DNA of 64,000 nt from NCBI RefSeq assembly GCF_003597675.1, contig NZ_CP030827.1:2108001-2172000 (forward strand), given 5' to 3'. The DNA is from Neorhizobium sp. NCHU2750 (GTDB taxonomy: Bacteria; Pseudomonadota; Alphaproteobacteria; Rhizobiales; Rhizobiaceae). The notes under the pieces were generated by a model. It was not told where the DNA came from, did not search any database, and saw nothing but the letters and a program-made list of their open reading frames with translations. A program made the translations under genes and the position numbers. This document shows positions 7,107-44,372 of this stretch, piece after piece (the stretch's first letter is position 1; every line of letters begins with the position of its first letter).

Positions 7107-7168
7107 TGCCGGATTTCGGTCCGGCTATGGCGATAAACGGTCGGTGTAATAAACCTATTGGACCCGGG
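7107..7168 (+). ncRNA. ssrA: 5' half of host tmRNA acceptor piece, cut by the island (attL)
   Basis: Bases 7123-7168 align without gaps to 43697-43742 of the complete tmRNA gene carried by the island (31 of 46 identical by hand count, same distance to the T-loop). The last five bases, CCGGG, are the 5' strand of a T-stem. The matching 3' half (T-loop TTCGGTA, T-stem CCCGG, acceptor strand CGCCTCC, ACCA) sits 36.9 kb away at 44105-44127. Joining the two gives a perfect T-arm, so this is the left remnant of the host gene. The 5' boundary is approximate (predicted transcription start to junction). Confidence 0.85.
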
Positions 7169-7172
7169 GGCG

Positions 7173-7204
7173 TTATACAGACATCGGCTTTGATTTAGTC
7201 GACG
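7173..7204 (+). repeat. Left terminal inverted repeat of the island
   Basis: TTATA (7173-7177), CA, GACAT (7180-7184), ten bases, TTAGTCGACG (7195-7204). The same blocks occur in reverse complement at the right end (44073-44102), with a two-base difference in the internal spacer. These are probably binding sites for the island recombinases. Four bases (GGCG) separate it from the last host base. Confidence 0.75.
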
Positions 7205-7277
7205 TTGTGAACCTCGACATCAGTCCTGTCTTATCACTCGCTTAGATTCAGCACATTTCTCCTACTCAAAAAAAAGC

Positions 7278-7304
7278 ATCGGCCGAAAGGCCGATTCCGT
7301 TTTT
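7278..7304 (+). terminator. Rho-independent terminator near left island end
   Basis: Stem ATCGGCC / GGCCGAT with a GAAA loop (7278-7295), followed by a T-run (7300-7304). It is placed to stop transcription entering the island from the host tmRNA promoter. An A-run on the other side suggests it may work in both directions. Confidence 0.7.
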
Positions 7305-7360
7305 GTAGACAAGCCTGATCGACGTTGAACCAATACTAAAGTCGATTCAGGCTTGACTAC
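7305..7360. repeat. Long inverted repeat (hairpin) near left island end
   Basis: Two arms of 19 and 20 bases (7305-7323 and 7341-7360) are reverse complements except for one mismatch and one extra base, with a 17-base loop. It directly follows the terminator hairpin. It could be a structured RNA, an accessory recombinase site or a transfer/packaging-type signal; nothing in the sequence decides between these. The rest of 7361-7515 contains only short hairpins and no gene. Confidence 0.5.
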
Positions 7361-7515
7361 TTCTTATGAGATAAAGTCGGGCGAAGCCCGTCCTTTTCGG
7401 CGCAGCCGAGCAAAGGCCCCGCAGGGCTTGTAGACTGTGATGGCCACCGGACAGAGCCCTATCGTCTTACATGAAAATCTGCTGGCAGTGGATGCAGATT
7501 CATCATCGACCCGGT

Positions 7516-7776
7516 TCAACCATGCCGTTCTTGCTCGTACGGCAGCGTCAGGAATGTTGCCGTAACCCCCCAGCCTTCACCAGCAACCGGCTCAATGAAA
7601 CGGATACCGGATCGCTCATAGTAGGCCATGAGCGTCTCCACAGCCCCAGGTCCGGCAGTCCCAATCTCCACGCGATGAATCGTCTTGGTTCCAAGCCCAC
7701 ACGCCCGCGCAATCTCACCCTGTGTCTGGCCGACAAGGATTCGCGCTGAAATAAGGATGCGCTTCGGGGCTCTCAT
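7516..7776 (-). CDS. Small HTH (XRE/Cro-CI-like) transcriptional regulator
   Basis: An 86-residue protein with a helix-turn-helix near the N-terminus, around residues 16-40 (VGQTQGEIARACGLGTKTIHR reads as a Cro/CI-type HTH), followed by a short tail. Start ATG at 7776. It is divergent from the small gene and AAA+ protease operon at 7957, and the gap between them carries a perfect palindrome and a related half-perfect copy. The likely role is repressing its own gene and the divergent operon. The family name is sure only at the HTH level. Confidence 0.7.
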   Translation of the reverse strand: MRAPKRILISARILVGQTQGEIARACGLGTKTIHRVEIGTAGPGAVETLMAYYERSGIRFIEPVAGEGWGVTATFLTLPYEQERHG

Positions 7777-7835
7777 AAGGTTTGAGTGTCACCAAAAATC
7801 ACACCATGCAAACAAAATGCAAAAATGACCATTGC

Positions 7836-7895
7836 GACGTCATTAATGACGTCGTATTAGTCATTCGTGACTGATTAGACGTCAACAATGACGTT
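7836..7895. promoter_or_regulatory. Palindromic operators between HTH regulator and AAA+ operon
   Basis: GACGTCATTAATGACGTC at 7836-7853 is a perfect 18-base palindrome. A related copy, GACGTCA-ACA-ATGACGT, lies at 7878-7894. Both fall in the divergent intergenic region and are the natural binding sites for the HTH protein encoded at 7516-7776. An AT-rich stretch with another imperfect dyad (TTAGTCATTCGTGACTGA) lies between them. Confidence 0.6.
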
Positions 7896-7956
7896 CTCAG
7901 CGCCGCAAGGATTGAGACGAGCCCGAATCGCTAGGGCGTTTTCCAAGAGGTTGCAA

Positions 7957-8256
7957 ATGAAACTACGATACGCACCAGTCGAGGCCCTCTCGCGTTTGGT
8001 CGATGATCTCCGCCTTGCAGAGGCCGCTTCCCTGTCGATTTCGGACATTTCAGATTCACCGATACTTCACAGCCATCGGATTCTACCTATGTCGGTCGGA
8101 ATACTTGAAGGGATCGTTGAAGGTCATCCGAAGTTGGGAACGGGGCGCCCGATAACGACAAGCCAAGTCTTCTACCTCGACACTGAACTCGGCATCGCCA
8201 GAACGTTGAGCAGATGGTATCGGCTCGGTGTGTCTGCAGAAACTGGCAGACACTGA
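7957..8256 (+). CDS. Small protein of unknown function upstream of AAA+ protease
   Basis: A 99-residue protein from the ATG at 7957, which has a good ribosome binding site (AAGAGG, six bases ahead). An in-frame ATG at 7888 would add 23 residues but lies inside the second operator and lacks such a site. The protein is soluble, with an N-terminal helical segment rich in Leu, Ala and Asp and no signal or membrane segment. I do not recognise the family. The next gene starts within a few bases of its stop, so the two are probably co-translated; it could be an adaptor or substrate of the protease. Confidence 0.6.
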   Translation: MKLRYAPVEALSRLVDDLRLAEAASLSISDISDSPILHSHRILPMSVGILEGIVEGHPKLGTGRPITTSQVFYLDTELGIARTLSRWYRLGVSAETGRH

Positions 8257-8257
8257 G

Positions 8258-10120
8258 ATGAGGCGAGGATTGACGCGCAGCAAGTTCAGTGAACTTGCAG
8301 AGGACCCGATCAGGTTTCTTGCATACTGCAGTCTGCGACGAGCGCTCAAGGCACAGCCGTACACCCTCAGCTCTCCTTCAGACGGGCCCATAATAATCGT
8401 CGTACCGCCCGGACACCAAGCACATGTGTACAAGTCCGCTTTACATCTTCTGCTCAAAATCGAGCGTGAAGAGTGGGGTGAACAATTCGGAGAGATACGT
8501 CTAGCCAGCCCCCCAAAAAAGAAGGGATCCACCGATAAGCAGATTTCAGTCTTTGACCTGAAAGGGCTTCGCGTACTGATCGCAAACCGCATTAGCGAGG
8601 TGCCAAGGGATATCCGTTTCGTGGCACAGAGAACGTTCCATATCGAGCCGCCATGTGCACGACATATCAATGCCGCGCGTCACTTGGTGGGAAGGCTACC
8701 CATCGCCAACGAGCACGCGGAGCTGCTCATCGGAAGGCCACATAATGTCATTGCAGCAGCGACATTTAAGAAGACGGTCGGGGGAGACGAGATTGCCGAG
8801 TTAAGTGCACTTGATCGCGCGGAGGTCGCGGGGCCGTGTCTTTTCGATCTTCCCGGATACGACGAGGTGAAACCTTGGGTCCGTGGTCTTTACCGCGATG
8901 TCGAGCAGTGGCGCCGGGGAAACCTATCGTGGAAGGAGCTTTCCCGCGGAGCACTTCTTTCCGGGCCGCCAGGAACCGGAAAAACACTATTCGCTAGTGC
9001 TTTCGCTTCGTCACTGGGATTGAGGCTCATCGCAACGACTGTCGGGGCTTGGCAGTCCGCAGGACATCTTGACGACACGTTGAACGCGATGAGGTCTAGC
9101 TTCCAGGATGCAAACGATGGTCGTGGCGCAGTCCTTTTCATAGACGAGTTCGACAGCATTGGTACAAGGCCAACCAGGCCCTCCAGCAACCATAATGATC
9201 AATACTGGCAAATCGTGATCAACGAGTTTCTCAGCCTGATGAACAATCTGGGCGATGGGGTCGTCGTTTTGGGCGCTACAAATAACCCAGAGTGGATCGA
9301 TCCGGCGATTTTAAGGGCAGGGAGAATTGAGAACCACTTTTCGCTGCATCTTCCCGACACCAGGACGCGAGCCGAGATTATACGATACCACGCAGGCACA
9401 AAGTTTTCGCTCGAATCCTTGGTGGAAATTGCCGATGAGCTGGAGGGAAAGTCAGCCGCGGCGCTAGAAGAATTGGTGCGTGACGCTCGAAAAGACGCGC
9501 GGGACGAAGGTTGCGAACTGGAGATACGACATCTCCGAGCTCGACTTCCGGAGAAGCGATACTATTCCCTGGAACAGCAGTTCCGGCTCGGGGTCCACGA
9601 GGCCGGTCATGCTCTCGTATCCTTGGCGCTAGGATACGCGTCGAGCGCGACGATCGAAATCAAGGATTCATTCGACCCCAATGCGACATCTTTTCGGGGC
9701 GGGCAGACGTCCTACGACCTTATCGAAAACTATCTTCCGACGGAAACAGCGCTGCTCGATCGTATTGCGGTCGCCTTAGCTGGGATGGCTGCGGAAGCTG
9801 TTGTATTTGGGGACCGCTCTCTTGGATCTGGAGGTGTGATTGGCAGTGATATCGAAAGAGCAACGACCCTGGCGAAGCGGATAGTGGCCACATATGGCTT
9901 GGGCACGACGCCCGCATTTCTCGGAACGGTCGAAGAGGTAGATGACAAGCCCATGCCTCAGCCATTCGAGGACGAATTGTTCGAAATCTTACGTGTCCAA
10001 TACGCACGCGTACTTGCTATGCTCACTGATGAGCGGGAAAGAGTGATTGGCCTTGCGCGAGACGCTGTGACCCACCACCGAGTTAAGATCGAACGAGATG
10101 GAAACCTGGATGCAGCGTAA
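8258..10120 (+). CDS. Soluble FtsH-like AAA+ ATPase with zinc metalloprotease domain
   Basis: About 620 residues. The N-terminal about 230 residues are of unknown type. An AAA+ module follows, with Walker A GPPGTGKT (about residue 237), Walker B VLFIDEFD (about 293) and the NNPEWIDPAILRAGR arginine-finger region. A peptidase-M41-like domain comes next, with HEAGH (about 446) and a downstream GSDIERAT motif supplying the third zinc ligand. This is the FtsH architecture without FtsH's membrane helices, so it should act in the cytoplasm. The start may instead be GTG at 8228, overlapping the upstream gene; ATG at 8258 follows that stop by one base. It is probably controlled by the divergent HTH protein. 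A quality-control or anti-phage role is inference. Confidence 0.75.
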   Translation: MRRGLTRSKFSELAEDPIRFLAYCSLRRALKAQPYTLSSPSDGPIIIVVPPGHQAHVYKSALHLLLKIEREEWGEQFGEIRLASPPKKKGSTDKQISVFDLKGLRVLIANRISEVPRDIRFVAQRTFHIEPPCARHINAARHLVGRLPIANEHAELLIGRPHNVIAAATFKKTVGGDEIAELSALDRAEVAGPCLFDLPGYDEVKPWVRGLYRDVEQWRRGNLSWKELSRGALLSGPPGTGKTLFASAFASSLGLRLIATTVGAWQSAGHLDDTLNAMRSSFQDANDGRGAVLFIDEFDSIGTRPTRPSSNHNDQYWQIVINEFLSLMNNLGDGVVVLGATNNPEWIDPAILRAGRIENHFSLHLPDTRTRAEIIRYHAGTKFSLESLVEIADELEGKSAAALEELVRDARKDARDEGCELEIRHLRARLPEKRYYSLEQQFRLGVHEAGHALVSLALGYASSATIEIKDSFDPNATSFRGGQTSYDLIENYLPTETALLDRIAVALAGMAAEAVVFGDRSLGSGGVIGSDIERATTLAKRIVATYGLGTTPAFLGTVEEVDDKPMPQPFEDELFEILRVQYARVLAMLTDERERVIGLARDAVTHHRVKIERDGNLDAA

Positions 10121-10232
10121 GACATCGAAAAGAACCATTTATAGGATCAATTAGTCCAAAAAATGGTCCATTCTTTCAACCGCCTGTAACTGCCTGAGGC
10201 ACTCAACCAAATTGCTCCTAGAAAATGCTCCG

Positions 10233-10464: not shown

Positions 10465-10480
10465 AAGTGACCCGCTGCCG

Positions 10481-13400
10481 CTAGGCCATACCGCGTGCCC
10501 GCTGAAGCACGTGCAACGGGCGTCGGGATAGTTCGAAACTATCAACGGCTACGTGGCTCCGAGGATCAAGCCCTACCGTCTGGAACAGACGCTCGCGGCT
10601 CCAAAGGGGATGAACAACCACACCCCAGCGGCTATTCCGGTCGTCTAGCGAGAAAATCGGTATATCCGGGCGACCCTTCAAACTCGAGACGGTGTTTCCA
10701 GGTATGAACGTCTTGGTCTGCAAAGCCAAATCCTTCGCCGACTGCGACCAGTCGTTGAGCTCGAAGTGGCCGTAGTGGCCGTCAATCCCGCATTCGTAGC
10801 ACGGGTCCACTATCGCTCGCAGGTAGGACAACCCAAGCCGCCAGTCGAGAAGGCCATGGAAGTTCCTGTTGTTGTACCTCTGCAGGCACCTGTAGCAGGA
10901 CGCTCCGCACCTTTTCATGTGCTCGGGATCCGAAACGTCGGTTCGCGGCCATGCACCGTCCTCATCGAGGATACTGCGGATCAGGGCGGATACCGGGATG
11001 GTGCTGTCGCCCAGAAGATGTCGGCAGAAACCGGATCCGTTAGGAAGAGCGTCCGATATCTGCAGGTATGGTAGCCGATCACCGCTCGGGGAAACCATGA
11101 TGTTCGGGGAGAGGGCGTCGAACTCCTCCGGTGCTATGTCGAGGTCGAGTGCAGCCCGCTGGACGAGTATCTCCGTTGCCGAGATCGCGGCCGCGCGCAC
11201 GCTCGTTCGGGCCGGATCCCGCCGTCCCATGGACAGGCCGATATCCATGTCTAGCAGGCGCAGGTTGGGATTGAGGCGCCGGGGGCCGATCTGCAGCGAG
11301 TTGGTGACCTTGGTCGATGCCAGCCACGCGCTGATGGGATCATCAACGGCCCGATAGCGGCTCCTGGGGTCGTCTGCGAGCGCCTCCGTCGAGAGAGCCT
11401 GCCCAGCGAGCTTAAGGGTCGGCTTGTCCTTCCACCACCAAATCTTCTGAACGTCGTTGTCGATAGTTTCAGCGACTTCGAACCCCGTGAAGTCCGTGTC
11501 GTCCCTGAAACCGGGATTGACGAGGAAGATCTCCGATTGCTCGGCGAAGTTGACACTGAGGTTCTCGTCGGTCTTCTGCTTGTCCGGCTTTCCAAGGCTC
11601 GCGAGGGTCAGTCGCTGGCCGACCTTCGATGCAAGGTTCTCGCCAGACGGCCTGAGTTCAGTTCGATACGCCGCTGGCGTGATGCACCGGATGCCCGTGT
11701 CTGCAAGAGGCGCATCGCAGACATTGCAGGCGACCGTGTGTTCAGTGCCTCGGCTCCAGGCTCCGCACTGGCCGCAGAAGCGCAGATGGAAATCGTCCTT
11801 GAACCAGGGTGAGAAGGGCTGCATCGGAACCCCGAAGTCAGTCGCAAACTCGTCAGGTTCGGGAAGAACGCCGCTGAAGCCGATGCAACGATGCCTGAGC
11901 TTTTCACGTGTGCGGACGCTGCCCGGTGCGAAGTCGAAGATCGCCATGTCCTGATCGCGGTCGATCGTGTCCCATTCGGCTTCGAAACCGCTTTTTGGCC
12001 TCTTCAGCTCCACATACAGGTTCCTTGAGCGGGTCGGCATGCCGTAGAGTGGAACGAGACCACGTTCGGCCAGAGCCGCCGCGATGCCGACCCCCTGCAG
12101 GCCGAACTCCTCCTCGAGGTTATCGATGGCAGACAAGATCGTGTCAGCCGAAACGGAAGCGAGGATCTTCTCAACTTCGCAGTCGGACACCGCAGCGAGG
12201 ATTGTTGCTAAACGGATGCGGCGATGTTCACTGCGCGATAGCGCGTCGGCCAGCCGTTCCCGCCAGTTCATGTCCTGCCGGAAGTATTCCCTGCAGTACA
12301 GGAACTCGCCGTGGATGTCGCCCGGAACGAGGTCATCGCCAGCCCAAGTTTCGCCTGCTTCCTCGCGAATGAGACGAAATGCCTCCACCAGCCAGAACTT
12401 ACGCAGAAGGCGTGAGGGAATGTCCGTCAGCCCGGTCGTGATGAACGGCGGCGGCGGGGCCGATCCGGTGATCTCTATCGGATTATGGAAGTAGTGTATA
12501 TCGTGGCTCTTGCTCCGGCATACGGTCAGAACGGTCGAGAAAGCCTGGCCCCGTCGGCCGGCGCGGCCGACACGCTGCTGGTAGTTGAAGCGCTGTGGCG
12601 GCATGTTGCCTTGGTAGACCGCCTGCAGGGAGCCGATGTCAACCCCGACCTCCATGGTCGTCGTGACCGATAGGAGATCGGATGTATCGAAGAGCTTGCG
12701 CCATTCGAAGTCCTCGTCGCTCTCGCCGTCATTCTTGACGAAGACACCTTTGAACTGCTGGAGCCTGGTTGCAGGATCGCTCGTCTGCCCCGTCAGTTCC
12801 TCGCACTTGAGCCTGAAATGTGCTTCGCCGTTCGTGACGGAACGCATGACCCTCCGTCCGAGAAAGTTCTCGGACGAGATCTTTGAGGCAATGAGATCAT
12901 CGGGGCGCGTCAGTGTCTCGCCGCAGCGGGTGCATCTTCCGAACCCCTCGTGCAGATGTACCCGTCCGCAACGTTCGCATCGCCATGCCGGACCTGCAGG
13001 ATCCGCGGCGCGGAAATACAGCATGCTGATGTCGATGGAGCCGTCGCCGCGCTTTTGACCCAACTTGTTCTTGAGCTTGTCAAGGAAGTCGTCGCACTCC
13101 TTTTCAGGGTTCTGCAGGATCTTTGTCATCAGACGCTTGAGCCTGTTGTCTCCCCTCCCCAGCATGTCGAAGGCGTTCTTCCATGCGGTGCGTGTCTCTT
13201 CCTGGAACTGGTTGGGCGTGATCCGATATGCATCGGCGAAGATGCGAAGCATCGCGTCGTCCCGCGACTCGGCCGTCGAGTATTCCCGCGGCTCGTAGAA
13301 GCTTGGCCAACCCAGACCCGTCTCTTCGAGCGCGAAGTATGTCTTGCTGAATAGCAGGTCGGTCGCATCCGGCGGCTGCTCGTCCTGCACCTTTTCGCGT

Positions 13401-16342: not shown

Positions 16343-16344
16343 GT

Positions 16345-18387
16345 TCAGCCCTCTATATTTCTGAAGTACTCGTTGTATTGGTGATCTTTGCCCGCAGTGA
16401 CCGCCGCGAGCCATTCCGAATGGGTGATGAAGATCTCAACGAGATCAGGGATATTCACCCATGACGGAGTACGTGCCATTGCTCGCGCCGCGTTCTGCAT
16501 GGACGATCCTTCTAGGCCCCGATCAACGAGCATCCCTACCGCCTCCCCCATGCGCTCCTGGTCGGGTTCGGTTGTGACAGGCCAGGTGCCGGCGAATGCC
16601 GCGGTTCCGGGGCGCGATGTGTTCGAAGGCAGAAGCGGGAACAGGTGCCGGAGCGCGGCATTGGGAACGGAGATGCGGCTGCCATCCGCTGCGGCGCTTG
16701 CGATGACTGCAAGGTTGCGTGGCAGGCGGCCCACCCGCCTCATCTCAACGATCTGAGGAAGCCAGTACTCGCAAGGGCCGCTCGTCAGGTTGCACAACGC
16801 CACCGCCCCAAGCGTATCGGGATGGTTCCGGCAATCGTTGATCGCCGCCTGCAGGCCTGATTGCTCATCGATCAGCAGGTCGGCAAGCGATACCTTGGTG
16901 GGGTCGCAGAAGACGACCGCTGCCGCCTCTCCGGCTATGGCTGTCGCGATATCGATCGCTGCCGATGAGGCCTCGTTTCCGACGAGCACGGGGACTGCCT
17001 GGGTGGACGTGGCCAGAACGGTCGAAATCTGTGCTGCAGTGAGGCCTGTGGCTACGGCGAGTTCCTTCAGGGTGGTCTGCCTCTGCGTCTCAGACGCAGT
17101 GAGCCTGACGGGTGTGACCTCTGGCTTTGTCTGCTCTCTGGCTACGGCAGGCTCGATAATTGGTGGAGCGACGGCAGGAGCCGCCATCTGCGCCATTTCA
17201 TCTCGCAACCGTGCCACTTCCTCGCGAATGATCGAGGTTTCCCGAACGGAAGCCTCGATCATGCCGCCAGCGGCGCTTTCGATCCGCTGGCGGAGCGTCT
17301 CATCAAGCTTCTCCGTCTCGGCTTTGAGGAGCCCTTCCCGATGAGCCGCCGCCGCAAGCCTCATCTCGCATTCAGACAACTCGCTTCGCATCGTGGCGAG
17401 ACGGGTACTTTCCGCCTCCATCTCGCGACGGAGCTGTCCTTCGATCTCGGTGCGCAGTCGCGTTTTCTCGGAGGCCTCGAAAGCAGCCAGCTTCTCCCTG
17501 AATTCATGGGCACTCCCCAGGATGCTGGGCAGGATCTCGGAGAGTTCGCTTCTTCCAGCAAGGTGTCCGGACAGGACGGCCAGTTCCGACTTCTCCTCGT
17601 CGCTGACCGTCCGGTCGGCGATGAGCCTGAGAAGGGTGGAGGCATCCATGGAACCTGCGCCGTCCGGCAGGGCGACGAGGGACTTCAATCTCGATATCCA
17701 GCCTTCGACCGAGTGGAGAACCTCCTCCTCGGGCCGCAGGTCGGCGGCTCGGGGTTCGGACCATTTCGGCTGGGCCACGAAAACGACGAGGCCGTGCGGC
17801 AGGCTGATCGTTTCGGGACGGTTCTCAAGCCTGGATACGGGAACCGACCGCAGGGACGGAAGCCTGAGGCGGTGCCTGCCTGATGACGAACTCTCGAAGT
17901 CCGAGGTCAGCCAATCATCCGCGCCGACCTTGATGGCCGAAACCGCGGTCTCGAGAGGTATCTCAAGCGTTCCCTTCGATAGCTCGGAAAGCACGTCGCG
18001 TCCGTCTCCAGCGGTGGCTGCGTAGCCGACACAAAGCCTCGTCGCCGCGGAGAAGGAGACCGCATCGAGCTTGCCCGGCTCGGAACTGCCGTTGGCTGTC
18101 TTCTGGAGGTCGAACATGGAACTGGCACGGATGCTGGTCGCCGTCCTCGATATGCTGGCCACGAAAGCCGGGAGAGAAACCTCTTCGCGATTGATTGCGA
18201 GTTTTGACTCCTTCTTCTCTCCGCTGACGAGCCAGAATGAATCCACGCCTCCGAGAATGATCCTGGGGTCCCTGGTCTCGCGCATCCTGCCGCCGAAGAT
18301 CTCGCCGTCCTTCACCTCGGCGATGACTGCGACGTCGTGCGCGACAATCTGTCTGACCCTGTAAACCGACTTGCCTGAAGCTGCCAT
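16345..18387 (-). CDS. druG: DruG-like protein, Druantia type II subunit
   Basis: A 680-residue protein with no catalytic motif that I recognise. An N-terminal beta-rich region is followed by a long coiled coil (about residues 290-410, Glu/Arg/Leu-rich with heptads), a Pro/Ala/Val-rich linker and a C-terminal region with Rossmann-like hydrophobic strands. It sits between druF (three-base gap) and druE (two-base gap). The type II order is druM-druF-druG-druE, so position and length point to DruG. The function of DruG is not established. Confidence 0.7.
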   Translation of the reverse strand: MAASGKSVYRVRQIVAHDVAVIAEVKDGEIFGGRMRETRDPRIILGGVDSFWLVSGEKKESKLAINREEVSLPAFVASISRTATSIRASSMFDLQKTANGSSEPGKLDAVSFSAATRLCVGYAATAGDGRDVLSELSKGTLEIPLETAVSAIKVGADDWLTSDFESSSSGRHRLRLPSLRSVPVSRLENRPETISLPHGLVVFVAQPKWSEPRAADLRPEEEVLHSVEGWISRLKSLVALPDGAGSMDASTLLRLIADRTVSDEEKSELAVLSGHLAGRSELSEILPSILGSAHEFREKLAAFEASEKTRLRTEIEGQLRREMEAESTRLATMRSELSECEMRLAAAAHREGLLKAETEKLDETLRQRIESAAGGMIEASVRETSIIREEVARLRDEMAQMAAPAVAPPIIEPAVAREQTKPEVTPVRLTASETQRQTTLKELAVATGLTAAQISTVLATSTQAVPVLVGNEASSAAIDIATAIAGEAAAVVFCDPTKVSLADLLIDEQSGLQAAINDCRNHPDTLGAVALCNLTSGPCEYWLPQIVEMRRVGRLPRNLAVIASAAADGSRISVPNAALRHLFPLLPSNTSRPGTAAFAGTWPVTTEPDQERMGEAVGMLVDRGLEGSSMQNAARAMARTPSWVNIPDLVEIFITHSEWLAAVTAGKDHQYNEYFRNIEG

Positions 18388-18390
18388 GAA

Positions 18391-20835: not shown

Positions 20836-20877
20836 CCACCGCCCCCCTCAAAGCGTCCCAGATGCTGTTATTTCCCG

Positions 20878-29855: not shown

Positions 29856-29865
29856 AAAAAACCTA

Positions 29866-31008: not shown

Positions 31009-31020
31009 GTCCGGCATGTT

Positions 31021-33803: not shown

Positions 33804-33806
33804 CTA

Positions 33807-34289: not shown

Positions 34290-35354
34290 ATGGGTTTCGA
34301 AGTAGATTTTCTTTCTGTCGGAAACAGTAACGGCGACGCGATTTGTGTCAGATACGGCACGTCCGAACTCGGATATACGATTCACATAACCGATGGTGGC
34401 TATGTCGAAACGGGCCAGCGCATCATCAATCATGTCAATCAGCATTATGGATTCAATCCGTTCATAGCGAACGTGGTGTTGTCCCATCAGGACGGAGATC
34501 ACATCGCCGGATTGATCCCTGTCGTTCGTTATTTTGACGTCGGGGCACTCTGGATGAACAGGCCGTGGCTTTACGCAGCAGAGCTTCTAGGCGCGTTCCA
34601 TGGGAACTATACGGCGGAGGGGCTTCGCCAGGCGATCCGCGATGCATACCCGCAGCTCGTAGAGCTTGAGGCGTTGGCCATAGAGAAGGGAATACCGATC
34701 TACGAGACGTTCGCAGGATCCTGGATCGGAAACTTCCTCGTGCTCGCGCCCAGCCGAGTAAGATATCTGTCGTTAATTCCAGAGTTCGACAGGACACCTG
34801 AAAGCTACGCGAAGCCTGTCAAGGGCATCTTCGGCAAGCTGTTAGAGGTCGCTAAAAAGGTGGCGGCATTCTTTGAGACATGGGCAAACGAAGCGCTTCA
34901 GGAGAACCCGTCTCCAACCTCGGCATCCAACGAATCCTGCGTCGTTCAGCTCGGTGTTTTCGATGGAAAAACGGTCTTGCTGACTGCCGACGCCGGCCCT
35001 ATGGCGCTTTCTGAAGCTGCGGACACCGCTGCACGTTACGGATTTCTATCCGCTCCCGCCGTTATCCAGGTCCCTCATCACGGGAGTCGGCGCAACGTCA
35101 CGCCATCAGTGCTCGACAAGTGGCTCGGCGCTCCCCTGCCCGAAGGGGCGCAAACGCGCGGACTGGCGTTTTGCTCGGTCGGGGACAACAAGCCGGAATA
35201 TCCGAGGAAGCGCGTGTCCAACGCATTTCTGAGGCGTGGCTATCCTGTCTATAGCACGCGCGGGGTCGCGTGGCTCCGGCACCATGAGAATATGCCGACG
35301 AGAGCGGGATCTGCGGCCGAACACGTGCCCTTCACCAGTTCCTACGAGGAATAG
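34290..35354 (+). CDS. ComEC/Rec2-like metallo-beta-lactamase-fold hydrolase
   Basis: A 354-residue soluble protein. The metal site LSHQDGDHIAG (H-x-D-x-D-H pattern) is near residue 66, and PHHGSRRN near 257 matches the second conserved motif of the ComEC C-terminal MBL domain, a likely nuclease or phosphodiesterase. An about 80-residue helical insertion lies between the two. It is directly followed by a 4TM gene starting at the next base after its stop. Stand-alone ComEC-like MBL proteins beside membrane proteins recur in defence islands. Whether it degrades DNA, RNA or a signal nucleotide cannot be told. Confidence 0.75.
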   Translation: MGFEVDFLSVGNSNGDAICVRYGTSELGYTIHITDGGYVETGQRIINHVNQHYGFNPFIANVVLSHQDGDHIAGLIPVVRYFDVGALWMNRPWLYAAELLGAFHGNYTAEGLRQAIRDAYPQLVELEALAIEKGIPIYETFAGSWIGNFLVLAPSRVRYLSLIPEFDRTPESYAKPVKGIFGKLLEVAKKVAAFFETWANEALQENPSPTSASNESCVVQLGVFDGKTVLLTADAGPMALSEAADTAARYGFLSAPAVIQVPHHGSRRNVTPSVLDKWLGAPLPEGAQTRGLAFCSVGDNKPEYPRKRVSNAFLRRGYPVYSTRGVAWLRHHENMPTRAGSAAEHVPFTSSYEE

Positions 35355-37936: not shown

Positions 37937-39358
37937 GTGGCATTTTTGCATTGGCCGACGTCGGCGCACATCCCTCTGATGAACAACATGAGAGAAGGGT
38001 ATCCGTTCATCTCGGATGTCACGGGGAACCTTACCAGCCCCGTCAACTGGTACATCTACGATCGATGCAGAGGGAAGATTGACCCAGAGAACCTCGCAAA
38101 GCCACGGACGAAATTGAAAGAGCTTTCGCATAATACCGTAAAAAAGGTCGGCTACTCGATATGCAACGCGCTTACCTGGGGTGAGACGGAAGAAGCGCAT
38201 CCCAACCTCGGCGTGCTTCTATGGCATCAAATCAAAGAGTGGCATGTCACAGAAATCTACCAGGATGCACTAACCCGGGGTTATTGGACCCAGCAATTCT
38301 GGCAGGATGGTCATGAAGCGCCATTGCACCCACAAGAGACCATCTACTTTCGGATCAACGAGGTGCTATTGTGCTACCGATGGATGGCACTGGAAGGTCT
38401 AGTAGATCGTTTCGAACAGCACCCAACATCGCGAGACATTATACTCGCCACTCACGACGCAAATCTGTCGTATTCCTCACGTGCGGAGGAGCCCGATACA
38501 GATCGACCAAAGAAACAGAATTTTCGAAGAACACGAACCATTCCAGGGAACGGCGTCCTACCGCCAATGGATGGCCTCATTGACTGGCTGGAAAGGGTGT
38601 CCGCGGAATCTCATCGACCTGCACTTCTCCATACCCTGGAGATAGGTCTCAGGATAAGCGAGACCGAGGAGAACACGCTTCTTCCCGGAGTGATGCATGC
38701 GCGCAAACTCAGCCACATACGCCGAAGTGTTAGCCACCGCAAATGGACCAGCCAAACCCGTCTTCTGAAATATAACCTTTCAGACGACGCAATGATCGGC
38801 GTCCTTCCCGACAGACGGGTATCCTTTTCCGATGCTGATGTGATCAGCATGAGGGTTATTGGCAAGGGCGCCAAGGTCCGGCTCGTTCACATGGCTAGAA
38901 AGACAGCGCAGGCAGCTTGGCATTATGCCGATAGCACGCGCATACATATCCTGAACCGGAACAACATTAGTCCGCTGGATGCGCCAGCTCAACTTTTTCT
39001 CAATCGCGACGGTCACCCCTTGACCGCCGCCGCTATGATCCGCGGGATCAGCCGAGCAAATGAAAACAGTACAGACGCCGTCAAAATAACTGCCCATGTT
39101 TTGAGGCACCTCTTCGCATGCTTCTATTTGAAGAACGCAATTGAAGGTCAAGCGGCCCGCGAAGGCCTCACCATGGATCAGCTCTCTTACGAACAAATCG
39201 AAAAGATCGCAGAGGCACCAGCCAGGACGCTTCAGCTCCATCTCGGCCATACCTATTTCGAAGATACCGCCGGCTACATCAAGCTCGTGATCGAATGGTG
39301 GTTGACGCCCAAATACTTCACGATGTGGAACAATTACTTGGACGGGCAAAATGCGTAG
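37937..39358 (+). CDS. ginA: GinA-like tyrosine recombinase
   Basis: A 473-residue integrase-family protein. The catalytic domain shows the first Arg near LEIGLRISE, Lys in the GKGAKVRLVHM beta-hairpin, HVLRH (H-x-x-R), LGH and the nucleophile Tyr in DTAGYI. So all active-site residues appear present. GTG start at 37937 with TTGAGGAGG five bases ahead. First of four genes joined by 4-8 base overlaps. Three unequal recombinases plus a small protein is the GInt arrangement; the gene symbol is by analogy. It should excise and integrate this island at the tmRNA gene. Confidence 0.8.
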   Translation: MAFLHWPTSAHIPLMNNMREGYPFISDVTGNLTSPVNWYIYDRCRGKIDPENLAKPRTKLKELSHNTVKKVGYSICNALTWGETEEAHPNLGVLLWHQIKEWHVTEIYQDALTRGYWTQQFWQDGHEAPLHPQETIYFRINEVLLCYRWMALEGLVDRFEQHPTSRDIILATHDANLSYSSRAEEPDTDRPKKQNFRRTRTIPGNGVLPPMDGLIDWLERVSAESHRPALLHTLEIGLRISETEENTLLPGVMHARKLSHIRRSVSHRKWTSQTRLLKYNLSDDAMIGVLPDRRVSFSDADVISMRVIGKGAKVRLVHMARKTAQAAWHYADSTRIHILNRNNISPLDAPAQLFLNRDGHPLTAAAMIRGISRANENSTDAVKITAHVLRHLFACFYLKNAIEGQAAREGLTMDQLSYEQIEKIAEAPARTLQLHLGHTYFEDTAGYIKLVIEWWLTPKYFTMWNNYLDGQNA

Positions 39359-41270
39359 AGGCCCAAAAATAGGTAAATCTACGCCTCCCGTTGTGAAGCG
39401 GGACTTTTCGCCCCCTATCGCGCAACGACCTCTAAAGACGCATTCCTCTATCGAGAGAGACCAAGATTTCCTGGAGATTTCTAACTGTGCCTTTTTGCAC
39501 AATCATGCCCTTATAATCAGAAAAGAATTCCTAAAGGAAAAGCAAAACACCGACGCACAGCGAACACAACTTCGATTCATCAAGCAATTCTTGGACCACC
39601 ATGAAAAACTTGAGGATAGTTCGATAAAAAGCGCCAATGATATTACCTCATTCCTTTGCGCGCATTTTATTTTCTATTGCAAAGACTACGCTTCCCGGGC
39701 GGCACGCGTTCGGTTTTTCTGGCGACTGCTCAGGGCCATTGGAGTCCCAAGCGACATAATCCCACCGAATCCCTATATCGATGGGCGCCCACCAGCAAGG
39801 GACGCGATAGATGAGCGTGACGCTCGCCACGCTGTCAAGCTTGCGAAGGAAGATGCCCGAGCAATACTTCATAGGCACCGGATCGCTGAAGCAATGCGTT
39901 CTGTGGGCAGAGACCCTCGCCGAGCCCATGGCGGAGCGCCGGGCGACTGGGACAAGCTTGAAAATCGCCTTTGGGTTTGTCGAGAGGTGTTAGGGCTTCG
40001 GGTTCAAACTGAGGCCGACCTGGTGGCAGCGGGGAATCGCGGGGTCATTAGATTAATGGAGGGTAAGCCTGGGGCGATAACAATTGATCCAGCCGAGGGA
40101 GCGAAGCTCGGATACCACCTCCTGTCACATATGCGGTTCTATCATCCCACATTCGAAGACCTTGTTCCATTCGTCGTGCTCTTGATGATCCGATCAATGG
40201 TTAACTTCCAGTGCGTCGCGGATCTTCAGGCTTCGAGCCAGTGGTCGAAGCCATATCCCTACTCGATCAACGACAGCGAAGCCGGGAAGGCGTGGGTCAC
40301 AGTCGTCCTGCCCAAGTTGCGCGGTGCTCAAGCTTCTGAAGTCGCGAACATTCCACGCGCCGTCTCGTTTCCGAGCTTGGTAACGCCTTGGTCCCATCCA
40401 TATCAGATATTGAAGTCTGTGCAGTCTATAACCGCCCCGCTGCGGCTGGAGGTAAACCGTCGGATTAAGGAACTGTCGCGCAAGGAATATCGCACCGCCA
40501 AAGAGAACAAAGAGCTCGAAAGGCTGCAATTTATCCAAGACGATATGTTTATCTACCGAACCAATGACGGCATTACGTCGATTAAATACGTCACTCGCGA
40601 GGGTTCCAGGTTCCAGAATTTGCCGAGCATTCTCTCTAGGTACGGCATTAAAGGCGGAATAAGAGCTTTACGCGACGTCGGGCTTCAGTTCGGTTTCAAG
40701 GCGTCTGGGCACAACCTTCTAGTTCTTCATATGCTTGCTCGCCATTCGTCCAGAGCCACCGCTGCAGCGTACGCTCACCGTCAGGAGTTTTTAAGAAAGA
40801 GCGAGGAACTGTTCGTCAAGATTTTTGATGCTTCGATCGCCCTCGTAAGAGCCGCGAAATACTCACTTGCCAACTTGAAGAAGGTGCTCAGGGATTCTGG
40901 ACTTGAAGACTGGCAGATCGAGAATGTTCTCGACCCGACAAATCAAAGCCGATACGGGAACCGGTGCGCCAGTCCTAGATCTGCGCCTCCGCAGTACAGC
41001 GGCGGAACCCCACCGGGCGATTTATGCCGGAAACAAGATTGTATCGACGGTTGCCCTCTTGCACGTTTTTTGCCCGATGCACTTCCATTTCTAGTTAGGC
41101 GATGGGACGAGCTAAGGACCAACCTTTCAAGTGTCGGCCTTGCCGCTCAGTTCGAGAACATCCTTTCGCAACGGCTCCGGAACATCGAACGCATACTCGC
41201 TCGATATCCAGCGGCAGCCGTGACGAAGGAGAAGCGCCTGCTGGCGCATCAGTCACAGGCTAGCCGATGA
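39351..41270 (+). CDS. ginB: GinB-like tyrosine recombinase homologue
   Basis: A 639-residue protein. The mid-region Arg lies in LLMIRSMVNFQ. The C-terminal part, FKASGHNLLVLHMLARHSSRATAAAYAHR, resembles the H-x-x-R / LGH / Tyr region of integrases but lacks an obvious H-x-x-R, so it may be catalytically weak or a structural partner. A Cys cluster (CRKQDCIDGCP) near residue 565 suggests zinc binding. Starts at an ATG overlapping the ginA stop; its stop overlaps ginC (ATGA). Comparable to the second large recombinase of Tn554-type and GInt elements. Confidence 0.75.
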   Translation: MRRGPKIGKSTPPVVKRDFSPPIAQRPLKTHSSIERDQDFLEISNCAFLHNHALIIRKEFLKEKQNTDAQRTQLRFIKQFLDHHEKLEDSSIKSANDITSFLCAHFIFYCKDYASRAARVRFFWRLLRAIGVPSDIIPPNPYIDGRPPARDAIDERDARHAVKLAKEDARAILHRHRIAEAMRSVGRDPRRAHGGAPGDWDKLENRLWVCREVLGLRVQTEADLVAAGNRGVIRLMEGKPGAITIDPAEGAKLGYHLLSHMRFYHPTFEDLVPFVVLLMIRSMVNFQCVADLQASSQWSKPYPYSINDSEAGKAWVTVVLPKLRGAQASEVANIPRAVSFPSLVTPWSHPYQILKSVQSITAPLRLEVNRRIKELSRKEYRTAKENKELERLQFIQDDMFIYRTNDGITSIKYVTREGSRFQNLPSILSRYGIKGGIRALRDVGLQFGFKASGHNLLVLHMLARHSSRATAAAYAHRQEFLRKSEELFVKIFDASIALVRAAKYSLANLKKVLRDSGLEDWQIENVLDPTNQSRYGNRCASPRSAPPQYSGGTPPGDLCRKQDCIDGCPLARFLPDALPFLVRRWDELRTNLSSVGLAAQFENILSQRLRNIERILARYPAAAVTKEKRLLAHQSQASR

Positions 41271-43105
41271 ATATCGCTGTACTGGAGGACTACCTTGGTG
41301 ACGACGACATCGATGCAAGTTTGTGGTTTGTTTTCGCACGGGCGCTCGATGACGGCCGCCCACCCTACTCCAAAGCCAAGAAGGTATCGCCGCTTTCCGT
41401 TTACGGCGATCTAGTTTGGCATTTTCCCAAATCCTGGTATCCGCCAGGAGCGCACTACAAGAGCAAATTGAATTTCTTGGGAAGAGCCTGGCTCACCAAC
41501 GGCTCAAAGCGACGCCTAAGCCCAGGATCTCTGCTGTTTCAACAGCTTCAGGAGATCACGTTTGCCCTCACTCATCTAATCCATATCTTTTCAGACGCGC
41601 GGACGACCACCTCCCTGTCCAACACATTTATGCTCTTGCGCAAGCTGGCAATCGCTGCGGAGGAGGCTGGGTGCACGAGTCTCTCGCAAGTCACTCCCCA
41701 CAACATCCAGACAATCATCGGTCTCGCGTCGCGTAGCAGTTCACAAATAGACCAGCTCTGTTTGTGGCTCGATAACCTTGTAGAGTTAACACGCCGAGGT
41801 TACCTCACTGACGGCGTTAAAGATTACGACTTTGATGTAGAGGTTGGGATCCGAAACGCGGATACATCGCTCCCGAAAGGCAAGCAGCCCCTTACCGACG
41901 AGCAACGCCAGGAACTGCTGACAAAAGTCCTCTTGATTATTGACAATCGTGGCTCTTTCATTGCGTGGACGAAAGAATGCTTATTGACAGGACGCTCGAG
42001 TGACGCAGTCGAGTGGTTGCAAAGGATATTTCCAGAAACCGCAAAGAAGAACTTTCGATACCCGGATATTTTGTTCCAACTATATCAAGCAGCCACAGGG
42101 GCACTGATAGGAGACGCCATAGGGTGCCGCCCCAGTGAACTGCTGTCCATAGAAAGCGGTTTTGTTCTTCAGCACCAGAGCGATGCCTTCGTATCCCTAA
42201 ATCATTTCACCCTAGACTCGGTAACGACAAAGGGCCTTCGGAATATTGGGGGAAACGAAAAACGCCTTCGTGTTTCGGAACTGGTCTATCAGGCCGGTTG
42301 CGGATTGCAAGAACTGCATTCGTTGCTGGGACAGCGGACTGAGAGGCTCTTCTCAGGTAGGGGCGAAGATCTGGAATACAGTACAAACAGGTGGAATGGA
42401 ATCCTGAAACGCTTCTGTGAAATAACAGGTCTTCCATTTCGAATCACGCAATACACCGGTCGCAAAACCCTTATCGCCAACGTTGTCAGGACAGTGACCA
42501 ATGGTCTAGCTGCAGCCCAGGCAGTTATGGACCACGTCGACCGGGGAACGACGGCTGGCTATGGTCTTTCAAATCCTTTCGTCCGTGAGGAAATCTATGC
42601 AGAGTGTCTCGAGGGCTTCCGGAACGGGACACGAACGCTGCTGGAGACTACGATCGCGGCAGGTGGTCGAGGTCTAGGGGGAAACGCAGGGCGCCGCTTG
42701 GAAGAACGCGTTGCAGCCTTAGCTGAGGATACCGGCGTGGTCGTTCCGAAAACGATTGACATCTTCGTTGAAGAACTCATTCGCCAACAGACCATACCAA
42801 TCCCGGTGGCCCCTGGAATACTCTGCATGAAGCAAGGCACGGTGCGCGGGAAGTGCGGAGACATCATCCCACACGCAGGCCTATGCACCGCCGAGTGCAC
42901 TTGGCAAGTCCAGGAGATGTATCGGCGCGAGCTTTTGTTGTGGGAAATCGAGATGGCACGCTCTGGGGGGCTCGCCTCGTCGTCAGGGCTTCAGAAGACA
43001 TATTGGTTGCACCAAATGGAGGATCAACTGCACGCGTGGCCAGATCTACGACACGAGTTTGAACAACTGCTTTCCGACGTTCCAACCTTGAAGGGAATGC
43101 TATGA
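41267..43105 (+). CDS. ginC: GinC-like tyrosine recombinase
   Basis: A 612-residue protein. It contains Arg in GCRPSELLSIE, QYTGRKTLIANV in place of the H-x-x-R motif (Gln for His, Arg kept), MDHVDRGTTAGYGL with His and the likely nucleophile Tyr, and a C-terminal zinc-like cluster (C-x8-C, then C-x3-C). The ATG overlaps the ginB stop and the stop overlaps ginD. Third member of the recombinase trio. Confidence 0.78.
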   Translation: MNIAVLEDYLGDDDIDASLWFVFARALDDGRPPYSKAKKVSPLSVYGDLVWHFPKSWYPPGAHYKSKLNFLGRAWLTNGSKRRLSPGSLLFQQLQEITFALTHLIHIFSDARTTTSLSNTFMLLRKLAIAAEEAGCTSLSQVTPHNIQTIIGLASRSSSQIDQLCLWLDNLVELTRRGYLTDGVKDYDFDVEVGIRNADTSLPKGKQPLTDEQRQELLTKVLLIIDNRGSFIAWTKECLLTGRSSDAVEWLQRIFPETAKKNFRYPDILFQLYQAATGALIGDAIGCRPSELLSIESGFVLQHQSDAFVSLNHFTLDSVTTKGLRNIGGNEKRLRVSELVYQAGCGLQELHSLLGQRTERLFSGRGEDLEYSTNRWNGILKRFCEITGLPFRITQYTGRKTLIANVVRTVTNGLAAAQAVMDHVDRGTTAGYGLSNPFVREEIYAECLEGFRNGTRTLLETTIAAGGRGLGGNAGRRLEERVAALAEDTGVVVPKTIDIFVEELIRQQTIPIPVAPGILCMKQGTVRGKCGDIIPHAGLCTAECTWQVQEMYRRELLLWEIEMARSGGLASSSGLQKTYWLHQMEDQLHAWPDLRHEFEQLLSDVPTLKGML

Positions 43106-43662
43106 CGTCGCAAAAGGATAGCCCGCCGCGCAAGCGGGCGGCGGTAGATGGACTCAAAGTTGCCGCATACTCGCGGACACACGAGGCAATCGGAAAAATC
43201 CAAGCCGGAATGGCCCTCGTTGAAAAAGAGCTTCAAGACGGGTCCCTCTACGCCCGACTTGAGCAGAACGACAAAATAGAGCTGGAGCAAGGGGATTTCA
43301 TGAGACTTTGTGGACTCGGGTGGAATTTCCTGAATGGTGAAAAACACCGTAGGACGACGAAACCGAAGGTCATTTCGTTTCTTACCGACGTGAACCAGAG
43401 GCTTCTTCAGCACCTCGCCGAACGACCAGACCTAGATCTTGGCCACACCCCCTCCTTGGCGTTCATCCAGTTACAAGCGCGCTACGACCGCCTAAGGCAA
43501 GAACGCGATGATTTGCAAGACTATCTCAGTCGAGTGCTGACCCACGGTCACAAGTGGCAACTCGATCTTCGTCAGGCGCTTCGCGTTATTAGAGAGCTAC
43601 GAGGCTCACAGGAATTGACTGTTGTTCCTCTTCACCGGCGACAGCCCATTGAAACTCGGTAA
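43102..43662 (+). CDS. ginD: GinD-like small accessory protein
   Basis: A 186-residue basic protein, starting with Lys/Arg-rich residues. An HTH-like helical part (about residues 15-75) is followed by a C-terminal coiled coil (ARYDRLRQERDDLQDYLSRV region). It probably assists the recombinases as a DNA-binding or directionality factor. It overlaps the ginC stop by four bases. The promoter of the island tmRNA gene begins inside its last codons. Confidence 0.65.
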   Translation: MTSQKDSPPRKRAAVDGLKVAAYSRTHEAIGKIQAGMALVEKELQDGSLYARLEQNDKIELEQGDFMRLCGLGWNFLNGEKHRRTTKPKVISFLTDVNQRLLQHLAERPDLDLGHTPSLAFIQLQARYDRLRQERDDLQDYLSRVLTHGHKWQLDLRQALRVIRELRGSQELTVVPLHRRQPIETR

Positions 43663-43676
43663 AAAATACACTATCT
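43649..43676 (+). promoter_or_regulatory. Probable promoter of the island tmRNA gene
   Basis: TTGAAA (43649-43654), 16 bases, CTATCT (43671-43676), close to the rhizobial consensus CTTGAC-N17-CTATAT. It starts in the end of ginD and would initiate about 15 bases upstream of the acceptor piece. Confidence 0.5.
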
Positions 43677-43696
43677 CAATCCTGCCTTCTCAAGGA

Positions 43697-43764
43697 GGCT
43701 ACGGTGCTAAACCTTTTGTGCAATAGACATACAGGACGGGGCTTCGATGCCCCCGCCTCCACCA
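43697..43764 (+). ncRNA. ssrA: Island-borne tmRNA, acceptor piece (two-piece permuted form)
   Basis: The tRNA-like 3' end is complete. T-stem GGGGC / GCCCC encloses TTCGAT, then comes acceptor strand CGCCTCC and encoded ACCA (CCA at 43762-43764). CGCCTCC pairs with GGGGGCG at the start of the coding piece (43795), including one G-U. CTTTTGT (43713-43719) pairs perfectly with ACAAAAG (43827-43833) of the coding piece, forming the P2 helix. In the permuted gene the acceptor piece comes first. A 30-base removable spacer with a small hairpin follows (43765-43794). The T-loop is one base shorter than the host's. Confidence 0.88.
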
Positions 43765-43794
43765 AATCACCTGATGATCGTTTCATCGGCAAAT

Positions 43795-44010
43795 GGGGGC
43801 GACATGGGATCGACTGGTGTTGAAAGACAAAAGCTGTGCTCGGCATGATACCACCGTTATCGGGTCAAAAAGTGTAGTTGCAAACGACAACAACGCTAAG
43901 GGTTATGCTCTCGCTGCCTAATGGCGGTGCGGGAAATCCGACCTAAGTCCTTATTGTTAGCACTTTAAGGCGGGGTCCGGAGGTACCTGGCAACAGAAAC
44001 CTCCACCTTT
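43795..44010 (+). ncRNA. ssrA: Island-borne tmRNA, coding piece; tag ANDNNAKGYALAA
   Basis: Begins with GGGGGCGACATGGGATCGAC, the standard 5' tRNA-like arm. The resume frame at 43880-43921 encodes ANDNNAKGYALAA then TAA. The alphaproteobacterial signature AACAGAA is at 43992-43998 in the loop of the terminal pseudoknot, whose arms GGAGGT / ACCTCC match. The 3' end is approximate. Differences from the host coding piece at 44158 are spread along the molecule, so this is a distinct lineage rather than a recent duplicate. Confidence 0.92.
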
Positions 44011-44072
44011 CCCAGATTGCAGTTAGTTGAAATGCATGTCGCTTTAAAGTATTGTTTCTGTAATGCTTTTAC

Positions 44073-44102
44073 CGTCGACTAACCGGTAACATGTCCTTAT
44101 AA
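44073..44102 (-). repeat. Right terminal inverted repeat of the island
   Basis: CGTCGACTAA (44073-44082), eight bases, ATGTC (44091-44095), CT, TATAA (44098-44102). This is the reverse complement of the block pattern at 7173-7204. Two bases (AG) separate it from the first returning host base at 44105. Confidence 0.75.
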
Positions 44103-44104
44103 AG

Positions 44105-44127
44105 TTCGGTACCCGGCGCCTCCACCA
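44105..44127 (+). ncRNA. ssrA: 3' half of host tmRNA acceptor piece (attR)
   Basis: T-loop TTCGGTA, T-stem strand CCCGG, acceptor strand CGCCTCC and ACCA. The bases just upstream (TATAAAG) cannot form the T-stem, but CCGGG at 7164-7168 can, with five Watson-Crick pairs. CGCCTCC pairs with GGGGGCG at 44158. So this is the right remnant of the host acceptor piece after island insertion. A 30-base spacer (44128-44157) precedes the coding piece. Confidence 0.88.
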
Positions 44128-44157
44128 CAAGCTGGCATGATCAGGCCGGTTTATGAT

Positions 44158-44372
44158 GGGGGCGAAATAGGATCGACAAGGGTGTAAAGATCGAACTTTT
44201 GCTCGGCATGATACCGCCGTTATCGGGTCACAAGTGTAGTTGCAAACGACAACAACGCTAAGGAATACGCTCTCGCTGCCTAATGGCGGTGCGGGAATTC
44301 CGCTCTAAGTCCTTACGGTTAGCCCCGTAAGGCGGGGTCCGAAGGCACCTGGCAACAGAAGCCTTCACCTTC
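44158..44372 (+). ncRNA. ssrA: Host tmRNA coding piece; tag ANDNNAKEYALAA
   Basis: Starts GGGGGCGAAATAGGATCGAC. The tag frame at 44242-44283 encodes ANDNNAKEYALAA and TAA. AACAGAA lies at 44354-44360, between pairing arms GAAGGC and GCCTTC. The piece itself is intact, but its acceptor piece is cut by the island and its own promoter is now 37 kb upstream. ATCGAAC (44190-44196) can pair imperfectly with GGTCGGT in the left remnant (7139-7145), in the position of the P2 helix. It is followed by sspB, the host neighbourhood. Confidence 0.92.

Follow-up and report, generated by a model that had tools for sequence, protein, structure and literature searches.

In a 64,000-nucleotide (nt) stretch of Neorhizobium sp. 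NCHU2750 DNA (contig NZ_CP030827.1, positions 2,108,001 to 2,172,000; this whole stretch is called the window), an integrated island of 36,936 base pairs (bp) splits the permuted, two-piece gene (ssrA) for transfer-messenger RNA (tmRNA) inside its T-arm and carries a complete permuted tmRNA gene of its own. At the level of sequence, the split recurs at exactly the same base pair, together with an island-type replacement gene, in six further genomes of the Rhizobiaceae and Rhizobiales; the T-arm of the replacement is recoded, its two pieces pair with each other, and the mRNA-like bodies of the copies are mosaic. These islands very probably destroy ssrA and substitute an insulated tmRNA, on which the cell would then depend.

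The host tmRNA gene is split inside the T-arm

The Rfam covariance model RF01849 gave two matches in the window: a complete island copy at 43645–44007 (243.7 bits) and a broken host copy at 44039–44369 (175.2 bits), in which the 5' half of the acceptor piece was replaced by non-tmRNA sequence. These two loci were also the only matches in the strain's whole genome of 6.35 Mb, and ARAGORN called a single tmRNA in the window, the island copy, with the tag ANDNNAKGYALAA. The left half of the host acceptor piece was located at 7108–7172, ending in GGACCCGGGGGCG, 36.9 kb from the right half and with the island between them; it was the one match in the genome to a left-half pattern allowing up to two mismatches. 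The parts of the split locus were as follows.

7108–7172, + strand: left half of the host acceptor piece as far as the T-loop, host side of attL; the last 6 bp, GGGGCG, are the spacer; single genome match
7173–7203, + strand: left terminal inverted repeat, extent set by eye; imperfect inverted match to 44074–44102
44074–44102, − strand: right terminal inverted repeat, extent set by eye
44103–44108, + strand: 6-bp footprint AGTTCG from the element, differing from the host GGGGCG
44109–44127, + strand: right half of the host acceptor piece (3' half of the T-arm, acceptor strand and CCA), from RF01849 and relatives
44158–44369, + strand: host tmRNA coding piece downstream of the island, tag ANDNNAKEYALAA; the 175.2 bits are those of the entire broken copy

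Two genomes of the same genus (G047 and G140) showed the site without an island. In both, the tmRNA gene was uninterrupted and gave one RF01849 match (301.4 and 305.5 bits, respectively). Their DNA aligned to the window until 7172 and again from about 44143–44146, with an intact T-arm in between, and passed from the 7172 side directly to the 44109 side, which places the host boundaries at 7172 on the left and 44109 on the right and the element at 7173–44108. The rejoined host acceptor piece paired with the coding piece at 44158 at 7 of 7 acceptor-stem and 17 of 18 inner-helix positions. An island splitting the permuted two-piece host tmRNA gene is thus confirmed. The preliminary description of this DNA had proposed the split, this pairing and continuity of the gene in island-free relatives, all of which held, as did its expectation that no intact host acceptor piece lies elsewhere: neither RF01849 nor the left-half pattern found one in the strain's own genome. 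Its loop TTCGGTA needs correction, being a mixture of host and island: 44103–44108 (AGTTCG) is part of the element, and the host's native T-loop reads GGCGGTA.

The split and the replacement recur in six other genomes

A right-junction pattern of 26 bases, 20 of them specified, was scanned over a collection of one genome per species (84,980 species) and gave five loci: Rhizobium sp. Root1212, Ferirhizobium litorale KMM 9576 (the same contig as genome G100), Shinella zoogloeoides PQ7, Metarhizobium album NS-104 and the Rhizobiales isolate AFS032198. All five held a homologue of the island protein GinD, an island-type tmRNA, a host remnant and sspB. The island copies scored 246–262 bits in four of them and 197.5 bits in Root1212, the latter because of a 35-nt deletion.

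A profile of another island protein, GinC, matched 8 of 394 family genomes, above 400 bits in the window genome, G100, G947 (with the same tmRNA coordinates as Metarhizobium) and G1114; all four of these had a tmRNA beside the gin genes. The other four matches were weak (20–44 bits) and had no tmRNA in the scanned flanks; G985, G103 and G092, which are among them, had a single tmRNA match of 311–317 bits, and the fourth, G131, is an incomplete eighth case taken up below. The profile matched none of the other seven same-genus genomes in this sample. G1114 completed the six further cases. Its element measured 85.3 kb, with a left half, ginABCD, the island tmRNA at 2,179,708 and the remnant at 2,258,145; the gin–tmRNA module stood at the opposite end from that in the window, with about 1.2 kb between ginA and the left border, and the two tmRNA copies were about 78 kb apart, compared with a few hundred bp in the six other cases.

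The left-half pattern matched once in each of the four newly met genomes and was also found in Ferirhizobium and G1114; the left half was on a separate contig in Ferirhizobium, Root1212 and AFS032198. In each carrier genome the RF01849 matches were the island copy and the remnant, with an additional weak match to the left half in G1114; the Shinella remnant fell below the RF01849 cut-off genome-wide, yet scored 84.2 bits with RF04321. Among 151 family genomes, RF01849 matched twice in five (G000, G100, G131, G043 and G068), of which G000, G100 and G131 were of the split-plus-island kind; G043 was in fragments and contained two genes of host type. In G068, the second match did not fall within the 20 kb surrounding the host-type gene. 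Scanned over 397 genomes of the order and 385 of the class, the left-junction pattern GGACCCGGGGGCGNTATA occurred each time in one genome, that of the window, and a GinD protein search matched 1 of the 397; these samples contained few family members and missed the later cases. Chance and assembly artefact were considered as explanations and set aside.

The element ends do not rebuild the gene

In all seven genomes, the left host half ended in GGACCCGGGGGCG and the right half restarted with GTACCCGG, so that integration would be precise to a single base pair of the T-arm. The two element ends repeated each other imperfectly in inverted orientation, with TTATA..GACA..TTAGTCGAC in the window type, a motif common to related elements, and GTATATGAG.. 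and TTATATGAG.. in G1114. Left and right ends were identical at 7–13 of the first 20 bases in ungapped comparison. The right-end footprint was AGTTCG in the window, GGTTCG in Shinella and Metarhizobium, GGTTCA in Root1212 and AFS032198, TGGGCG in Ferirhizobium and GGGGCG in G1114, the only one identical to that of the host. The footprints GGTTCG and GGTTCA, which are like an ordinary T-loop, hint at earlier homes in such sites. About 300 bp inside attL, the Ferirhizobium left end (L050) had a second left-end-like repeat, GGGCGGGGGC-TTATACAGACA...TTAGTCGAC, which suggests nested or tandem elements.

Imperfect inverted terminal repeats with a 6-bp spacer are described for SE and Tn554 elements, in which 6 bp are copied from the donor site to attR (PMC10214605). 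The present elements resemble these in their inverted (here imperfect) terminal repeats and 6-bp footprint and, as far as that description goes, differ from SE elements in gene order (intA-tfp-intB-srap there) and hosts. Because the ends consist of inverted repeats and a 6-bp footprint and not of gene sequence, integration would cut the acceptor piece without any repair from the element ends. That the ends are unable to mend the gene would be why the element carries a whole permuted tmRNA directly behind ginD.

The island tmRNA pairs with itself and lacks the target

That a complete second permuted tmRNA lies just inside the right end was borne out. The island copy matched RF01849 over model positions 1–355, far above the gathering threshold (243.7 versus 50 bits), with the acceptor before the coding piece, 7 of 7 acceptor-stem pairs, 18 of 18 inner pairs and a tag reading frame. 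Its parts are listed below.

43649–43677, + strand: promoter-like TTGAAA-17-TATCTC before the island tmRNA, found by eye; overlaps the end of ginD
43699–43764, + strand: island tmRNA acceptor piece without the 5' leader hairpin, from RF01849, pairing and covariation; T-loop TTCGAT, own CCA
43795–44010, + strand: island tmRNA coding piece, from RF01849 and ARAGORN; tag ANDNNAKGYALAA

Covariation was examined on the seven island copies. Standard pairs filled 99.0% of 210 pair cells, compared with 35–57% in slid controls; four pairs were changed on both sides, which 7 of 500 shuffles equalled, and the covariation score of the tRNA-like domain was matched by none of 500. In this domain the mean difference among the island copies was 7.2% (at most 13.3%), and that between island copies and genes of host type was 34.7% (at least 29.2%). 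The target GGACCCGGGGGC[AG]GTACCCGG was present in 34 of 37 native genes read and in none of the seven island copies; with a different T-arm, the island tRNA-like domain would therefore no longer be a target and would resist re-insertion. The T-loop of the island copies had 6 nt between 5-bp T-stems (43738–43753 in the window), one fewer than usual, as did those of three genomes with single tmRNAs (G148, G098 and G060).

Two-molecule energy folding did not tell own pairs from cross pairs of pieces, and own and cross pairing was judged instead by counts of pairs in the helices defined by the Rfam alignment, in six genomes (G1114 left out). Island acceptor and island coding pieces formed 18 of 18 inner pairs in five of the genomes and 17 in Root1212; the rejoined host gene formed 17 in five and 16 in Root1212; mixed island and host pieces formed only 9–12. 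Acceptor stems were identical and gave 7 of 7 pairs in every combination. With these different inner helices, the island pieces would therefore pair mutually and only poorly with host pieces. The identical acceptor stems would also allow a mixed tmRNA, in which the island acceptor piece pairs with the coding piece that remains of the host gene, yet that combination kept 10–12 of 18 inner pairs against 17–18 for the island's own pieces, and we consider it highly improbable.

The host gene might also still work: since tmRNA in these bacteria already consists of two RNAs, its left half, the right half of the acceptor piece and the coding piece might assemble by pairing into a tmRNA of three pieces, alongside the island tmRNA. 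The left half and the remnant coding piece kept 16–17 of 18 inner pairs in all six genomes, the host halves had decayed little relative to intact relatives, and no terminator-like site was found between the window island copy and the remnant. The T-arm would, however, be held across the break by only five pairs, and little decay is also expected if the insertions are recent. It is established that processing of tRNA-like ends requires the acceptor/T-stem domain, which also speaks against a three-piece molecule. We regard this reading as very unlikely.

A tandem duplication of the host tmRNA gene, followed by entry of an unrelated island into one copy, would account for copies that adjoin each other in six of the seven cases. 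Against it are the roughly 35% distance of all seven island tRNA-like domains from host genes, the host T-arm in 34 of the 37 native genes read with one coding piece per native locus, the 78 kb between the G1114 copies, and the rarity of two RF01849 matches (5 of 151 family genomes, three of them of the split kind and G043 fragmented). We consider this history highly improbable.

Probable exchange of the mRNA-like part with the host copy

Island and host tags were both of the type AK(E/G)YALAA in the window, Ferirhizobium and Metarhizobium, and both AEARLAA in Shinella, Root1212, AFS032198 and G1114. The tag type followed the host although the Gin proteins of the window, Metarhizobium and Shinella (GinD only in the last) belong to one subfamily with 51–61% identity. 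In a tree of the mRNA-like bodies, the island copies were placed among host genes. The middle of the window island copy, including the tag-coding part, had alleles of G047 and G140, and the middle of the remnant had those of the Ferirhizobium and Metarhizobium island copies, while the outer parts of both copies were in place; the swap looked reciprocal. In Root1212, the middles of the island copy and of the remnant were both of island type. Recombination between adjacent copies is the simplest account of these mosaic bodies, and the mRNA-like part would thus be of the host tag type partly via recombination with the host copy. The earlier view of the island tmRNA as xenologous holds for the tRNA-like domain and fails for the mRNA-like part, which resembles genes of the host lineage.

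The gin operon

Four overlapping genes precede the island tmRNA.

37937–39358, + strand: GinA-like tyrosine recombinase, 473 amino acids (aa); PF00589; R, HxxR, H and Y residues
39351–41270, + strand: GinB-like protein, 639 aa; overlaps ginA; homologues at the same operon position in related elements
41267–43105, + strand: GinC-like protein, 612 aa; 4-bp overlap with ginB; assigned from homologues and a model
43102–43662, + strand: GinD-like protein, 186 aa; 4-bp overlap with ginC; a homologue in each of the six further elements

The R, HxxR, H and Y residues of GinA were conserved in three aligned homologues. GinB, GinC and GinD had no Pfam match at an E-value of 0.001. The predicted structure of GinC (predicted local distance difference test score, pLDDT, 65.7) matched, with moderate confidence, XerH (best, E = 1.9e-4), the Tn1549 integrase and Cre in the PDB, and GinC thus models as a tyrosine recombinase; the GinB model (pLDDT 55.2) was too weak for use. 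A ginD homologue stood directly 5' of the island tmRNA in all seven genomes. The ginABCD-like operon was complete in the window, Metarhizobium, AFS032198 and G1114, and ginA of Ferirhizobium was cut by a contig edge. The operon had decayed in Root1212 and in Shinella. The Shinella element, of 6,301 bp with no N in the stretch, retained ginD and a second, partial ginD, and its genome had no GinC match.

These genes recall the GInts of Bardaji et al. 2017 (PMC5385486), which are described as site-specific islands with variable cargo and a four-gene operon encoding the tyrosine recombinase GinA, a tyrosine-recombinase-like GinC and a small GinD; the likeness to the Gin proteins is by description. 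The GInt operon, however, is described as lying at the 5' end, with ginA next to the border and cargo from the ginD end, whereas the window has the order cargo-ginABCD-tmRNA-attR, with ginD facing the right end; in G1114, ginA does stand near the left border. GInts are also reported to integrate site-specifically with imperfect direct repeats of 10–11 nt; the elements here enter at the same base pair in all seven genomes, with only a 6-bp spacer and footprint (GGGGCG versus AGTTCG in the window). The main text of that paper mentions neither tmRNA nor ssrA. Because the operon position differs and the Gin likeness is by description only, we did not file the window element as a GInt. We propose that GInt-like islands, with their four-gene operon and up to three tyrosine-recombinase-like proteins, enter the tmRNA gene of Rhizobiaceae, presumably moved by the gin gene products.

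Relatives of the island-type domain

For the origin of the island-type domain, a phage sequence set gave no match, and viral contigs gave none for both patterns. Fourteen plasmid records matched, all at 60–80% identity and none over more than 80% of the query, and the matches listed lay in the coding part. A covariance model built from the seven island copies was run on 230 class genomes; among the matches listed, the best outside the window genome reached 95.3 bits against 160.6. At 19 class loci examined, 17 T-arms were readable; 13 had the exact target, 4 had small changes, and none had TTCGA.

Three genomes had a single tmRNA with an island-like TTCGA T-arm scoring 248–250 bits: G148 (L039, 9079–9447), G098 (L040, 9279–9656) and G060 (L041, 9403–9774). 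The left-half pattern found no host-type left half in them. These lineages may descend from replacements of this kind or be related to the donor. A broader and rather doubtful version of our proposal would have islands force gene replacement in the core translation machinery, by breaking ssrA, installing a target-free, insulated tmRNA, recruiting the host mRNA-like segment and becoming locked in, with G060, G098 and G148 as descendants that have lost the island and kept its tRNA-like domain.

Replacement or passenger

After integration, the cell would rely on the island for trans-translation, with a functional island tmRNA driven from its own promoter-like site, and the island would then be difficult to shed. 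The main alternative is that the island tmRNA is a dispensable passenger, kept by chance or without benefit in hosts that tolerate the loss of ssrA. tmRNA is not essential in all bacteria, which together with the 35-nt deletion in the Root1212 island copy favors a passenger. The covariation and 99% pairing of the island tRNA-like domain over seven genomes, the position of the tmRNA directly 3' of ginD in all seven, and its retention by the shrunken Shinella element speak against one, and we hold the passenger reading to be improbable. The idea that the element carries a substitute for the gene it breaks, raised in the preliminary description, was strengthened by the six further genomes, by covariation, and by the 6.3-kb Shinella element, which has kept the tmRNA in a genome free of GinC matches.

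Several observations count against our reading. The tRNA-like domain of the host halves is little decayed (0–6.1% to the nearest other host-type gene), so that only the split itself points to inactivation of the old gene. In the covariation analysis, further pair types were no more numerous than in shuffles (266 of 500 reached their count). A consensus scan did not list the window promoter-like site, a motif seen by eye; a similar TTGAWA/CTAT-T pair, likewise read by eye, preceded the island tmRNA in six of the seven genomes and was unclear in G1114. With their swapped middles, the window copies are not neatly foreign and host. Root1212 has a short ginB (449 aa), and no ginA was seen in the remaining contig end or left stretch; its island copy lacks 35 nt near the 3' end and its remnant 25. 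If the assembly is correct here, this cell may be without a standard tmRNA. Both Root1212 deletions begin at the same place near the 3' end and are either real or a hairpin assembly fault. G131 was an incomplete eighth case: its assembly has a gap next to the remnant, the left half lies on a separate contig, and the genome was left out of the counts because of the gap.

Flanking genes and cargo

4953–7025, + strand: FUSC family protein gene, host left flank (PF04632, E = 4.2e-137)
7888–8256, + strand: DUF6634 protein near an element end (PF20339)
8228–10120, + strand: cargo protein combining an AAA ATPase domain with an M41 peptidase domain (PF00004, PF01434)
10481–22695, − strand: Druantia type II-like defence cluster, cargo (PADLOC): DruE, 10481–16414; DruG-like, 16345–18387; DruF, 18391–20835; DruM-like cytosine methylase, 20878–22695
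44488–44991, + strand: sspB, host right flank (PF04386)

DruF and DruG of the window cluster were divergent (PADLOC E-values of 6e-31 and 5e-6, respectively). Other window cargo included an RND pump and a superoxide dismutase, a caspase-domain peptidase (27834–29291; PF00656) and, at 34290–35354, a protein with weak similarity to the Avs1a metallo-hydrolase. DUF6634 had tblastn matches in Shinella, Ferirhizobium, AFS032198, G131 and G1114, and none in the Metarhizobium and Root1212 stretches. Nine larger cargo proteins of Metarhizobium were scanned, one of which had PADLOC matches (a DndA/SspA-like aminotransferase); Ku and an IS66 transposase were also present. The Shinella element kept a DruE fragment (80% identical to that of the window), DUF6634 and the tmRNA; a shrunken element with its tmRNA kept is what lock-in would look like.

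Comparison with known integration systems

The principle of breaking an RNA gene and supplying another is known already. In the tRNA-dependent lysogeny of mycobacteriophages, demonstrated by experiment (Guerrero-Bustamante and Hatfull 2024, PMC10865867), an element with a tyrosine integrase is likewise described as sharing a short common core with its target, leaving the gene unrebuilt and bringing its own complete copy. Two features of such integration, in which the supplied RNA is also needed for survival afterwards, are present here for tmRNA: the target RNA gene is broken and not rebuilt, and the element encodes the same kind of RNA. By that account, the system differs in involving a tRNA, a single-piece gene and a phage, compared with a permuted tmRNA gene and a gin-like island known from sequence, and the T-arm and inner helices of the island replacement differ from those of the host. 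The logic of the island thus appears analogous to tRNA-dependent lysogeny moved to tmRNA, the new part being the tmRNA, the permuted gene and the gin-like island setting.

Tyrosine-integrase islands at tmRNA genes, some with defence cargo (I23/I44/I55, PMC12595487), are known from the Islander collection (PMC4383910) and from I23/I44/I55. As they are described, ordinary ssrA and tRNA islands restore the target or insert at the gene end with a short shared sequence, whereas the present islands restore nothing and bring in an entire gene. Searches of an open-access library turned up no account of an island that interrupts a permuted tmRNA gene and supplies a substitute for it.

These islands would therefore add a second setting for integration by destruction and replacement, with islands in place of phages and tmRNA in place of tRNA, and suggest why a whole gene is carried, since ends made of inverted repeats cannot at the same time serve as part of the gene. 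Testable predictions on target immunity and on the partner choice of two-piece tmRNAs follow from the recoded T-arm and the insulated helices. The islands may also mark a route by which mobile DNA takes ownership of, and then permanently replaces, a conserved translation gene.

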